Shown one piece after another: positions 19,627 to 23,707 of a stretch of 64,000 bases of DNA. Each line of letters starts with the position of its first letter. The first letter of the stretch is position 1. Under the pieces are notes generated by a model. It searched no databases and had not been told where the DNA came from. It worked only from the letters and a program-made list of their open reading frames with translations. Origin of the DNA: Acidimicrobiaceae bacterium (lineage in GTDB: Bacteria > Actinomycetota > Acidimicrobiia > Acidimicrobiales > MedAcidi-G1); assembly GCA_002717365.1 (NCBI GenBank), contig PBDJ01000008.1, positions 1 through 64,000 on the forward strand, in the 5' to 3' direction. Made by a program: the position numbers and the translations under genes.

Positions 19627-20412
19627 TCAGGTACGGCCGACGAGGGCCAGAACCAGGGGGGCCAGAGTCGGGTTGGTGGCCAGGGCGTCGCCACCTTCGG
19701 CGGTGACTGCTCCGGACAGGTCGCAGAACAGACCCCCGGCTTCCGGAAAGATGGTCAGCATGGGGGCCACGTCCCACCTGCTCACGATCGGGTCGACCAT
19801 GGCGTCGGCTCGACCGGTAGCCACCAGGACATAGCCGTAGGCGTCGCCCCAGGTCCGTATTACGGCACCGTTCCCAACGAACGCGTCTAGAGCAGCGGCC
19901 GACGGCCAGTAGTCGACGCCGCTGGTCACGACGCACGCTCCTTGGAGATCGGTTCGGTCGCCGACCCGCGTTGGTTCTCCGTCCACGAAGCACCCACGCC
20001 CCCGGCCGGCCCATACACACTCATCCAAACCAGGAACGTTGATCACGCCGACGGCCGGGCCGTGGTCGTCCTCGAGGGCAACAAGGTTGGCGTACAGCGG
20101 AACGCCGTGGATAAAGGATTGGGTGCCGTCGATGGGGTCCAGGATCCAGGTACGGCCCGAGGTCCCTGCGACGTCGGGCTCTTCCTCGCCGATCACTGAG
20201 TCGTCGGGGAAGGTTTCGACAATCCGGTCCCTCAGGAGCCGCTCGGCTTCGCGGTCGGCGACGGTGACGGGAGTGCCATCACCCTTGGTTTCCACGTCCA
20301 AGTCGGTCCGGCGGAAGTACCGCAGTGTCAAGGCGCCGGCTTCCCGGGCTATCTGGACGGCAAAATCCACCAGGGCCGGGTCTACGGCCGGCCGGGGATC
20401 AGATGCGGTCAT
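19627..20412 (-). CDS. Inositol monophosphatase-family phosphatase, HisN-like (histidinol-phosphatase)
   Basis: GEEE, WILDPIDGTQSFIHGVPLYANLVAL and SRWDVAPM motifs. Confidence 0.85.
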   Translation of the reverse strand: MTASDPRPAVDPALVDFAVQIAREAGALTLRYFRRTDLDVETKGDGTPVTVADREAERLLRDRIVETFPDDSVIGEEEPDVAGTSGRTWILDPIDGTQSFIHGVPLYANLVALEDDHGPAVGVINVPGLDECVWAGRGRGCFVDGEPTRVGDRTDLQGACVVTSGVDYWPSAAALDAFVGNGAVIRTWGDAYGYVLVATGRADAMVDPIVSRWDVAPMLTIFPEAGGLFCDLSGAVTAEGGDALATNPTLAPLVLALVGRT

Positions 20413-20469
20413 CGCAGGAGCCTAGGACCGGGCGTCTGGAGAGGGGGGCTTGATTAGGTGGAGCTGAAC

Positions 20470-20514
20470 TAGCGCGCTCGGAGGGACTCGAACCCCCAAC
20501 CTTCTGATCCGTAA
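20470..20514. repeat. Distal att-like copy: 45-bp duplication of the tRNA-Arg 3' half
   Basis: TAGCGCGCTCGGAGGGACTCGAACCCCCAACCTTCTGATCCGTAA identical to 23560-23604; not part of a complete tRNA. Confidence 0.95.
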
Positions 20515-20611
20515 GTAGGGCCACGGGGATCTCCAGTCGGGTTATTTCTGCTCTGAACAGCCCATTCTACGACAGCTCTGTGTCTGACTGTGCCCCCGTG
20601 TGCCACTCCTG

Positions 20612-20631
20612 TGGCTGCCGGTGTGGCTGCC
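20612..20631. repeat. 20-bp subterminal repeat, left (TGGCTGCCGGTGTGGCTGCC)
   Basis: 19/20 identical to 23469-23488 near the other end of the element; internally repeats TGGCTGCC. Confidence 0.6.
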
Positions 20632-20768
20632 TAGTCGAAGATCACTCCGGCGGCTTCCGGATCGAACCCGGTCGGCAAGGAGTCGCTTAGTCGGGAACGT
20701 AGGCAATGCATCTCCAGCCCATTACCCCATAAAAGAGACAGTCGACGGCGTGGCGAGAAGTCCTTCAC
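20631..20768 (-). CDS. Small hypothetical ORF, 45 aa
   Basis: GTG start 20768; MKDFSPRRRLSLLWGNGLEMHCLRSRLSDSLPTGFDPEAAGVIFD; preceded by the same leader sequence as the lipoprotein gene. Confidence 0.35.
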   Translation of the reverse strand: MKDFSPRRRLSLLWGNGLEMHCLRSRLSDSLPTGFDPEAAGVIFD

Positions 20769-20775
20769 AGTTTGA

Positions 20776-20860
20776 GTCTGTCACCCCTCCCCGGAGGCGA
20801 GGAGTTCGTAAACCCACAGGGATTGGACCTCTGAGGGGGCGGGGGTGTCTCTGACGCCCT
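20776..20860 (-). repeat. Leader/hairpin repeat copy B
   Basis: Minus strand AGGGCGTCAGAGACACCCCC...CCTCAG[~44 nt]GGGGAGGGGTGACAGACT; homologous to 22408-22450 with a longer loop. Confidence 0.7.
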
Positions 20861-20885
20861 ACGTGTAGATACGTACAGACATCAA

Positions 20886-22400
20886 CTAACCGTTTGTGGG
20901 TGGGATTGAGGCTGTTCGGCACCAACTGAGGCTCTCCTCGACTTGATCACGCTCCGGTGACCTGCTCCGCAATAGTTCTGCAATCGCAGGGGAATAGAAG
21001 TCAAAGAAACACGTCGCGTTCAAGAATTCCTCATGTTGTGCTGTAGGCACGCGATGGAAGTTGTCATAGATCCCATGATCAAACTTGGCCCACCCCCATT
21101 GTAAAAAACCAACGCTAGTTGCCACGAGATCGCCCTCATCCATCTCAAGGGGAGACAACTCATAGTCGCCACCAGACTGCACCGATGCCGTGGACCCCTG
21201 GGTGCTTGGCTCTCTGGTAAAGAGGGCAGCGATCTCCGCGACAGGTTCAGCAATGTGGTCAAACCGGAAGAGGAGCCCTTCACATTTTGTTCGAAACTCG
21301 AGTCTGTATTGGAGGTCGAACAGCCCCGTTTCTCCACGTTGCATGTAGTTGTGCCCGTGGTAGAGGGTTGCGTCAACCGGTAGCCGGAGGTTGACTTCGT
21401 TCTGACCGAAGGGAAGATCGAAATACCCATGTCCCTTCCTAAATCCCTCCGAGGTGAAACGTGCCGGAGGCCCAACTTCTACGAGAAGTGACGGATCCTC
21501 CAGAGGGAAGGTCGTAAACCAACCGGTGAAGTCATCTGGACAGTCGCCGCGCGGCTGCAAGGCAACGGCGAGAGTGGTAGAGGCCACGTCGCAGTCAGAC
21601 TCGTCGCAGTCAGAAAGTTGAACGAAGATCTCTTCAACAAAAACCCCCCATCCAAGTTGATACTCATACGCGCCTCCATAACTCTCACCGTCCCGCAGGC
21701 TGGATGTCCACCGCAACGAGTCAATGTCGTCGTATCCACTTGCTTCACACGAGAGCAATCTGGCTGGTTCGTCAAACGAACAATCAACCGTCAATTCGAC
21801 TCCCGCACTAGTCCTTTCCGAGGCGGGTGAGTCTGCTGTCATCGGGGTATCGCCCCCCTCTTCGGGGACGAGTGCCGAAGTATCAATCGATATTTCTACA
21901 ATCTGACAGTTCGAACCTTGGCATTCCTCTAGGACCACCTCGGTGGTTGGCGTAAGCAACTCGTCGTGAATGGTGAAGTCCCATTGGCTACCCGCGCCAT
22001 GCGCCCACGAACCAGACGAGGTCCACGTCAACTGTGAGCCGTCCTGATAGCCGGTTGAGCGACAGGACACCTTCAACCCTTCGGCATCAAGCGTGCAATC
22101 AATAACAAGGCCTGCAAGCACAGTCGTAGTCGGTGTCACGGTCGTAGGTGTGGGTGCAGCAGTCGTGGTCGCAGCAACCGTCGTCGTCGGTACAACAGTC
22201 GTGGTCGCAGCAACCGTCGTCGTCGGTACAACAGTTGTGGTCGCAGCAACCGTCGTCGTCGGTACAACAGTTGTGGTCGACGCCTGAGTTACTACAGGGG
22301 CAACCGTCGTAGTTGGCGTCGCTGTGTCTGGACTCCCACCACACCCCGAAGCGACTAACAGGAACGCCAGCGCAACCACACCCGTCAGGACCTTCTTCAC
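20886..22400 (-). CDS. Lipoprotein with Thr-rich repetitive linker and two Cys-containing Ig-like repeats
   Basis: GTG start at 22400: MKKVLTGVVALAFLLVASGCGG lipobox; (VVPTTTVAATTT)n; repeated VxDCxxDxxxLxxSCxxSGYxDxxxLxWTSS. Confidence 0.75.
   Translation of the reverse strand: MKKVLTGVVALAFLLVASGCGGSPDTATPTTTVAPVVTQASTTTVVPTTTVAATTTVVPTTTVAATTTVVPTTTVAATTTAAPTPTTVTPTTTVLAGLVIDCTLDAEGLKVSCRSTGYQDGSQLTWTSSGSWAHGAGSQWDFTIHDELLTPTTEVVLEECQGSNCQIVEISIDTSALVPEEGGDTPMTADSPASERTSAGVELTVDCSFDEPARLLSCEASGYDDIDSLRWTSSLRDGESYGGAYEYQLGWGVFVEEIFVQLSDCDESDCDVASTTLAVALQPRGDCPDDFTGWFTTFPLEDPSLLVEVGPPARFTSEGFRKGHGYFDLPFGQNEVNLRLPVDATLYHGHNYMQRGETGLFDLQYRLEFRTKCEGLLFRFDHIAEPVAEIAALFTREPSTQGSTASVQSGGDYELSPLEMDEGDLVATSVGFLQWGWAKFDHGIYDNFHRVPTAQHEEFLNATCFFDFYSPAIAELLRSRSPERDQVEESLSWCRTASIPPTNG
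22162..22269 (-). repeat. 36-bp tandem coding repeat x3 (VVPTTTVAATTT)
   Basis: gtcgtggtcgcagcaaccgtcgtcgtcggtacaaca, three near-identical contiguous units, no spacers. Confidence 0.95.
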
Positions 22401-22407
22401 GGCCTCA

Positions 22408-22450
22408 GTCTGCCACCCCTCCCCTGAGGGGGGGGTGTCTCTGACGCCCT
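22408..22450 (-). repeat. Leader/hairpin repeat copy A
   Basis: Minus strand AGGGCGTCAGAGACACCCCCCCCTCAGGGGAGGGGTGGCAGACT, immediately 5' of the lipoprotein GTG start. Confidence 0.75.
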
Positions 22451-22575
22451 GGGACAAGCAACTAATCCGGAACACCCCTAACGGGAGGCCATGCGCCTCC
22501 CATAGTTGGACCACCGCGTAATACGAGATCTTTATTGGGGGGCGCTGCCCAAGATTCAGCAGTTGCTACTAATGG

Positions 22576-23445
22576 TCAACCCGAGATGATCCAGCCACCC
22601 ACAAAGACGATGACGAGGAACACAGCAGCGATAACGAGTTGTCGAAAAAGGGTGACGCCCTCCTTCGGCTCGCTTCTTGTATCCCCTTGGCCACTTGATG
22701 TAGCAGATATGAACCCTCCTAGAACCATCACGATCCCGAAGAGAACAACCATCCAGAGGCCAGCGCCAACATTCGCTGAGACGACGAATCCCTCTTCAGC
22801 AGACAACTTTCTCGACCAGTCAGAGACACTGCTCACGTCATAGATCCCCACGGTCGTGACAAGGCATCCCAAGACCGCAATGAAGATTGGAATACCGCGA
22901 CCCTGTCTTCGCGCTCGAGAGATCATCGACAGCAGAGCCCCGAGTGCACCCAAGACCGCGACGGTGACCGCATCCTCTGGAGCTGACTCAAACCCAGATC
23001 GATGGATGGTGCCAACAAACAGAGCGGTTGCGGTGGCCCATGGCAGCACTCCCGAAAATACAAGTGCTCCTCCAGCAACAGCGGATGCGATCAGTGCCGA
23101 AGACCTCTTGCCCACGGAACTCTTCGCTTGCTGCGCGTTCCTTCCTTGGTCAGGAGTCTGTTGGTTGCCTACATCGGGCTTCGTCGGCGGGAGTCCGCCA
23201 ACCTCGTGTCCACACGACCGGCAGAACCTGTCTTCCGGTGATACTTCGTCACCGCATTGTCCACAAAATCGATGCTCTTCTGAGACGGGTAGCACCACGA
23301 AGTAAGTCTTCCATGCAGACGCCTGAACCGGTTCAGGAAGAACCGGGGCAAACACGATGGCCACGGGGGCACTGGTCACTGTTGGTACGCCACGGTCGTG
23401 GCGCTGTTCGCAAAGTACACGTGCGTAGACGTCTGGTCGCGACAC
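22576..23445 (-). CDS. Zinc-ribbon membrane protein
   Basis: EEHRFCGQCGDEVSPEDRFCRSCGHEVGG double CxxC zinc ribbon followed by several TM segments; true start uncertain (probably the GTG of VVLPVSEEH). Confidence 0.7.
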   Translation of the reverse strand: MSRPDVYARVLCEQRHDRGVPTVTSAPVAIVFAPVLPEPVQASAWKTYFVVLPVSEEHRFCGQCGDEVSPEDRFCRSCGHEVGGLPPTKPDVGNQQTPDQGRNAQQAKSSVGKRSSALIASAVAGGALVFSGVLPWATATALFVGTIHRSGFESAPEDAVTVAVLGALGALLSMISRARRQGRGIPIFIAVLGCLVTTVGIYDVSSVSDWSRKLSAEEGFVVSANVGAGLWMVVLFGIVMVLGGFISATSSGQGDTRSEPKEGVTLFRQLVIAAVFLVIVFVGGWIISG

Positions 23446-23468
23446 CTAGGGCGGGTAAGGAAGGGGTT

Positions 23469-23488
23469 TGGCTGCCGGTTTGGCTGCC
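23469..23488. repeat. 20-bp subterminal repeat, right (TGGCTGCCGGTTTGGCTGCC)
   Basis: 19/20 match to 20612-20631, same orientation. Confidence 0.6.
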
Positions 23489-23501
23489 GCAACACCGCAG
23501 G

Positions 23502-23523
23502 CCAACCCATGTAAATGGGTTGG
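23502..23523. repeat. Perfect 9-bp inverted repeat with 4-nt loop next to the tRNA-proximal att copy
   Basis: CCAACCCAT-GTAA-ATGGGTTGG. Confidence 0.75.
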
Positions 23524-23562
23524 TTGAACCGGTTAGGGGTCCTGACCTGCGAACTTGTTTAG

Positions 23563-23636
23563 CGCGCTCGGAGGGACTCGAACCCCCAACCTTCTGATCC
23601 GTAATCAGATGCTCTATCCAATTGGGCTACGAGCGC
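23563..23636 (-). tRNA. tRNA-Arg (ACG)
   Basis: Minus strand GCGCTCGTAGCCCAATTGGATAGAGCATCTGATTACGGATCAGAAGGTTGGGGGTTCGAGTCCCTCCGAGCGCG. Confidence 0.96.
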
Positions 23637-23707
23637 AGGGAGCCGAGTTTAGGGGCGGCCTGGAATCGGTCCACCGCCGGTTGGTAGGACATCAGGGGTT
23701 CGAATGG

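Follow-up and report, generated by a model that had tools for sequence, protein, structure and literature searches.

Can an insertion at a tRNA gene that carries no integrase still be a mobile element? Islands of this kind tend to be dismissed as debris, and the first-pass annotation of the DNA analysed here (the window, a stretch of 64,000 nucleotides from an uncultured member of the Acidimicrobiales) left two readings for the segment 20470-23604, namely that it is mobilised in trans or that it is a remnant. Our comparisons favour the first reading, short of proof, as the arms of the segment match those of integrase-bearing elements. We propose that 20470-23604 is probably a non-autonomous integrative element, composed of an att core, two attP arms and two cargo genes and devoid of an integrase, which would be recognised in trans by a subfamily of integrases directed to tRNA-Arg(ACG).

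Boundaries, target gene and empty site

The segment is bounded by a 45-bp direct repeat, TAGCGCGCTCGGAGGGACTCGAACCCCCAACCTTCTGATCCGTAA, whose two copies show zero mismatches and lie 3090 bp apart, start to start (Table 1). As in tRNA-integrated elements, the 3' part of the tRNA is contained in the direct repeat and the target tRNA-Arg(ACG) gene is intact. The perfect duplication of its 3' half, described in the first-pass annotation, was confirmed at 45 of 45 positions; the copy begins in the anticodon loop, as had been stated, but ends 2 bp, and not 3 bp, past the 3' end assigned by ARAGORN. When the core was sought elsewhere in the assembled genome, just one 22-bp match was obtained besides the two copies. 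The interior has a G+C content of 56.9%, versus 62.6% for the 64-kb window.

Table 1. Features of the element and of its target gene, with positions in the window
Feature	Position	Strand	Remarks
Distal att core, 45-bp copy of the tRNA-Arg 3' half	20470..20514	.	exact direct repeat
Distal (R) attP arm	20515..20631	.	conserved in other tRNA-Arg elements with unrelated cargo
R arm-type pair, TGGCTGCC-GGTG-TGGCTGCC (putative)	20612..20631	+	starts exactly 97 bp from core
45-aa ORF, tail ...PEAAGVIFD* abutting the R arm	20631..20768	-	tail beside R-arm sequence in G024:C65 and G056:C25
Palindromic repeat 3' of the lipoprotein gene	20763..20860	.	direct repeats D3/D4; edge of 99%-identical block common to G015:C20
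Cargo gene 1, lipoprotein, 504 aa; signal peptide, Thr-rich linker, two Ig-like domains, C-terminal domain	20886..22400	-	
Palindromic repeat, second copy, at the lipoprotein gene 5' end	22395..22450	.	direct repeats D3/D4
Cargo gene 2, zinc-ribbon protein with hydrophobic segments, 240 aa from GTG at 23298	22576..23298	-	ORF open to 23445
L arm-type pair, TGGCTGCC-GGTT-TGGCTGCC (putative)	23469..23488	+	ends exactly 71 bp from core
Proximal (L) attP arm, ending ...GGGGTCCTGACCTGCGAACTTGTT	23489..23559	.	91% to G001; 87% to isolated copy in G058/G060
Proximal att core, within tRNA-Arg	23560..23604	.	exact direct repeat
tRNA-Arg(ACG), intact target gene	23562..23636	-	ARAGORN

An empty site, which the annotation had proposed to look for in close relatives, is found in G008: here the IMPase gene runs into tRNA-Arg, with one core, flanks matching those of the window and no partial tRNA copy. 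The window flanks, joined by script, align along the G008 site, except for about 40 bp extra on the IMPase side of G008. Identity over the flanking IMPase gene is 90-92% for the nearest relatives in the sample, G008 among them; between the window and G008 the gene diverges by 8.4%.

Paired repeats at both ends of the element

Subterminal repeats had also been suggested as a mark to search for, and they are present. A paired repeat, TGGCTGCC-N4-TGGCTGCC, is found at either end of the element, placed as are the arm-type sites of integrases, and the pairs match those of elements that bear a tRNA-Arg-specific integrase. Across the 64-kb window the pair pattern occurs five times with up to two mismatches (0.71 expected), and its only two exact matches are the ends of the element. 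In the R arm, the distance of 97 bp between core and pair is kept in all seven arms that retain the first repeat, those of the window, G024, G062, two ends in G050 and two elements in G006, the last two counting by the first repeat alone. On the L side, the window has a distance of 71 bp in common with G050 and G022, where an integrase gene adjoins the arm; in G407 and G130 the distance is 60 bp, shorter by about one DNA helical turn. The element shares with the G050/G407 system the paired TGGCTGYC arm repeats at a fixed distance from the core; one repeat position differs between the window and the helper arms (TGGCTGCC versus TGGCTGTC), and at the position of the L-arm end G050, G022, G407 and G130 have CTGACCTGC. 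Their position and their co-occurrence with such integrases suggest that the repeat pairs act as integrase arm-type sites.

The R arm is 90% identical to the window's in G062, 88% in G002 and 82-84% in two G006 elements. The corresponding IMPase identities are lower (72% for G062 and 78% for G002) and the cargo is unrelated. Copies of arm sequence were also seen apart from complete elements: the L arm occurs with no adjoining tRNA core in G060:C32 and G058:C30 (L115, L116), beside an aldo-keto-reductase-like gene, and a second R-arm copy in G024:C65 (L122, 8327-8451) lies by a scaffold gap and runs into a hydrolase-like reading frame.

Other insertions at tRNA-Arg(ACG)

Insertions bounded by the tRNA-Arg 3' half were found in G002 (two in tandem), G006 (three in tandem), G024, G017 and probably G013, all with unrelated cargo and with no integrase recognised inside. 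In G062 and G057 the distal att and the R arm lie at or near a contig end, and in G011 a second core is followed by a scaffold gap before the tRNA. The proximal ends of the G002 and G006 insertions are of other types than the window's, the R arm of G002 has no repeat pair, and the R arms of G006 retain one repeat; these insertions look decayed or hybrid. In the window element the arm pairs are intact at both ends. In another metagenome-assembled genome (L190), a tRNA-Arg insertion has different tandem arm repeats (GGTGCAA...), which points to an integrase of another specificity using this site as well.

Could the partial tRNA copy have arisen with no site-specific recombination, through an assembly error or unequal homologous recombination? 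The window genome is an incomplete assembly (45 contigs, 78% complete), and the contigs of relatives often end near the tRNA-Arg repeat, as such an artefact would have it. We regard this origin as highly improbable, since the flanks of the element lie on one 69-kb contig and are syntenic with G008, other genomes carry the same tRNA-half duplications and arms around different cargo, and the arm pairs keep a fixed spacing at both ends. The earlier attribution of the locus to integration by a tyrosine recombinase at the tRNA is supported by the exact repeat, the intact tRNA, the empty site in G008 and the arm pairs.

A candidate helper integrase

The element lacks the integrase of its own that tRNA-integrated tyrosine-recombinase elements have. 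No recombinase is encoded within 20470-23604, in agreement with the first-pass annotation: the four Pfam integrase hits of the genome are all on other contigs, and a tblastn search of 20400-23700 with three tRNA-Arg integrases and two excisionase-like proteins returned only read-through of the tRNA, with no remnant of either gene. In the window's own genome, an integrase lies beside tmRNA and an integrase fragment beside tRNA-Pro(GGG) (G000:C45 and G000:C1; L124, L126).

Where, then, might the recombinase come from? This type of arm pair adjoins a tyrosine integrase gene at tRNA-Arg(ACG) in four genomes. In G050, an excisionase-like HTH gene and an integrase gene that runs off the contig lie beside the L arm; G022 has the N-terminal part of an integrase at a contig end, 53% identical to that of G050; and in G407 and G130 the integrase is full-length, with 404 aa and 66% identity to that of G050 in the former and 407 aa and 49% identity in the latter. 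The G407 element also carries an excisionase-like gene and proteins that, judged by eye from sequence, resemble type I restriction-modification subunits. Among 397 genomes of the order, the best matches to the G050 integrase are those of G407, G130 and G022 (50-66%), all at tRNA-Arg(ACG). The next matches fall to 31-36%, and of those examined one is at tRNA-Arg(TCG) and one near tRNA-Val. An integrase of the tRNA-Arg(ACG) subfamily was found neither in the window genome nor in 16 genus mates, several of them above 90% completeness.

Integrases at tRNA-Pro(TGG) (G014, G015) and at tRNA-Val (G014) were also considered as helpers and were rejected, as they have another target tRNA and their tandem arm repeats, where seen, are alike in layout and unlike in sequence. 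In G014:C52 (L131, 7987-11345), two copies of tRNA-Pro(TGG) enclose a compact element, about 3.3 kb long, whose only genes are an integrase and a lipoprotein of the Thr-rich-linker type; G015:C206 (L132) is similarly arranged.

The same att system could also serve a phage satellite, a packaged element moved between cells in the virions of a helper phage, and the small size and the dependence on a helper would fit such a hitch-hiker (PMC11389934). We consider this quite improbable. No gene for packaging, for capsid formation or remodelling or for replication was detected by Pfam in the six interior ORFs or by NCBIfam in the two cargo genes. The search for the att core in phages, which the annotation had advised, was run with the att and arm patterns on IMG/VR viral contigs and gave nothing or chance hits; the arm pattern was matched in other bacterial genomes. 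As for the helper-type integrase, its relatives in phage records reach 28-29% identity at best (26-29% in phage and plasmid records), and a scan of IMG/VR yielded no confirmed relative.

Cargo genes and the remnant alternative

All three reading frames that the first-pass annotation listed for the interior are present: those of the repetitive lipoprotein and of the membrane protein with a zinc ribbon, and the short ORF of 45 aa. In the AlphaFold model of the lipoprotein, two beta-sandwich domains are confidently predicted and the C-terminal part is unreliable (pLDDT below 50). The longer ORF of cargo gene 2 matches Pfam Zn_Ribbon_1 (E=9e-7). The lipoprotein C-terminal region finds a match in 6 of 298 genomes of the order, the window's own counted; within the family, the 47 other genomes contain no full-length match to the zinc-ribbon protein, and three of them have short partial matches. 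By this distribution, the interior genes are accessory and not core genes. Of the two observations that the annotation had named as refuting it, a partial tRNA copy in relatives without the element and an interior of universally syntenic core genes, neither was made.

The lipoprotein has relatives outside the element. Positions 20828-22150, covering its C-terminal part and the 3' palindrome, are 99% identical to a different locus in another species (L043, G015:C20), while the N-terminal linker and the upstream part are only about 75% identical; identity breaks within the Thr-rich linker, as if paralogues had swapped domains. The genus has many dispersed lipoprotein genes with a signal peptide, a Thr-rich linker, sometimes a flanking palindrome and differing C-terminal domains (L128, L131, L132, L243-L258), the one in L131 carrying a Pfam Beta-lactamase domain. 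Integron-like cassettes were set aside as an account of the palindrome-flanked genes, which are mostly dispersed and do not form long arrays.

The 45-aa ORF has no Pfam match and, in 397 genomes, only chance-level matches outside the window. We had considered it as the C-terminus of an integrase, an idea that was dropped because its last residues look like those of a pentapeptide-repeat protein: the pentapeptide protein of G009:C175 ends in ...GVIFD*, and a gene tail ...GVIFD/E* adjoins the R arm in the window, G024:C65 and G056:C25. The ORF is probably the remnant of a gene tail of this type and not a functional gene. A conserved tail at the R arm suggests a past replacement or deletion of interior sequence, as in a remnant.

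This leads to the main rival of our proposal, that an autonomous element integrated long ago at tRNA-Arg, lost its excisionase and integrase genes, retained or acquired cargo and has since become fixed, turning by decay into what is known as a cis-mobilizable element (CIME). The shared tail is consistent with such a history, as are the absence of a helper integrase from the genus and the hybrid or degenerate ends of the G002 and G006 insertions, which show that decayed islands do occur at tRNA-Arg. Against it, the arm pairs of the window element are intact at both ends with exact spacing, and no trace of an integrase or excisionase gene was detected. Its cores remain identical despite the divergence of the IMPase gene from G008. 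Had the distal copy been evolving neutrally since before the window and G008 lineages separated, the chance of such identity would be about 0.02; an att core kept under constraint because it still works is another explanation. On balance, we find a dead remnant rather unlikely.

Proposed mechanism and implications

Taken together, the duplication, the empty site in G008, the arm pairs at exact spacing and the presence of the same arms beside an integrase elsewhere are best explained by an element recognised in trans. We propose that a tyrosine integrase of the G050/G022/G407/G130 subfamily would come from an autonomous element, either resident in the same cell or newly arriving, and would act by binding the TGGCTGYC arm pairs and recombining at the 45-bp core; integration would restore a full tRNA-Arg, and excision would release a circle. 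An integrase of the G050/G407 type would act on the window element, which may still be moving and may be taken between cells by some vehicle.

A broader view is possible, and we put it forward tentatively: in this Acidimicrobiales family, tRNA-Arg(ACG) may be a gene-capture platform, where arbitrary genes between the same two attP arms would circulate among species in cargo-only units a few kb long, none of them coding for a recombinase. Rare autonomous elements would move these units in trans, and they would pile up in tandem beside the tRNA, somewhat like integron cassettes. The base-exact spacing of attP arms at several insertions that have no genes in common, and the same arm type beside a specific integrase, make mobilisation in trans directly testable, and the spacing signature (core-97-pair and pair-71-core) could find non-autonomous elements missed by an integrase-based search.

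Comparison with known systems

Compared with the autonomous elements of G050, G022, G407 and G130, the window element has the same target tRNA-Arg(ACG), the same L-arm layout and the same type of arm pair, but cargo genes take the place of the integrase that those elements carry, accompanied in G050 and G407 by an excisionase-like gene. By definition, the closest named kind is the CIMEs, for example the ICESt1-related islands, which are bounded by att sites and lack integration and transfer genes (PMC5704250). Like these, the window element retains attL and attR at the sequence level and has no integration or transfer genes as judged from ORFs, Pfam and tblastn, and tandem arrays such as accretion would give are seen at tRNA-Arg in the relatives G002 and G006. 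It differs in its size of about 3 kb, with two genes and complete arm pairs at both ends, and in that several genera have insertions like it whose cargo is unrelated. Since the element stands singly, any mobilisation would proceed in trans and not by accretion. As to an origin of the CIME type by decay, the element contains no recognisable ICE/IME, integrase or excisionase remnant, and the gene tail at its R end is of another kind.

At the ssrA gene of Dehalococcoides, several att-bounded islands, with or without an integration module, likewise occupy one RNA gene; there a serine recombinase acts at tmRNA, whereas here the site is a tRNA-Arg, the enzyme would be a tyrosine integrase, and arm-type pairs are recognisable (PMC3146451). 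MITEs and CALINs are also non-autonomous DNA kept movable through recombinase sites alone, although they belong to other recombination systems; in the element described here, protein-coding cargo lies between what appear to be the attP arms of a tyrosine integrase (PMC11389934).
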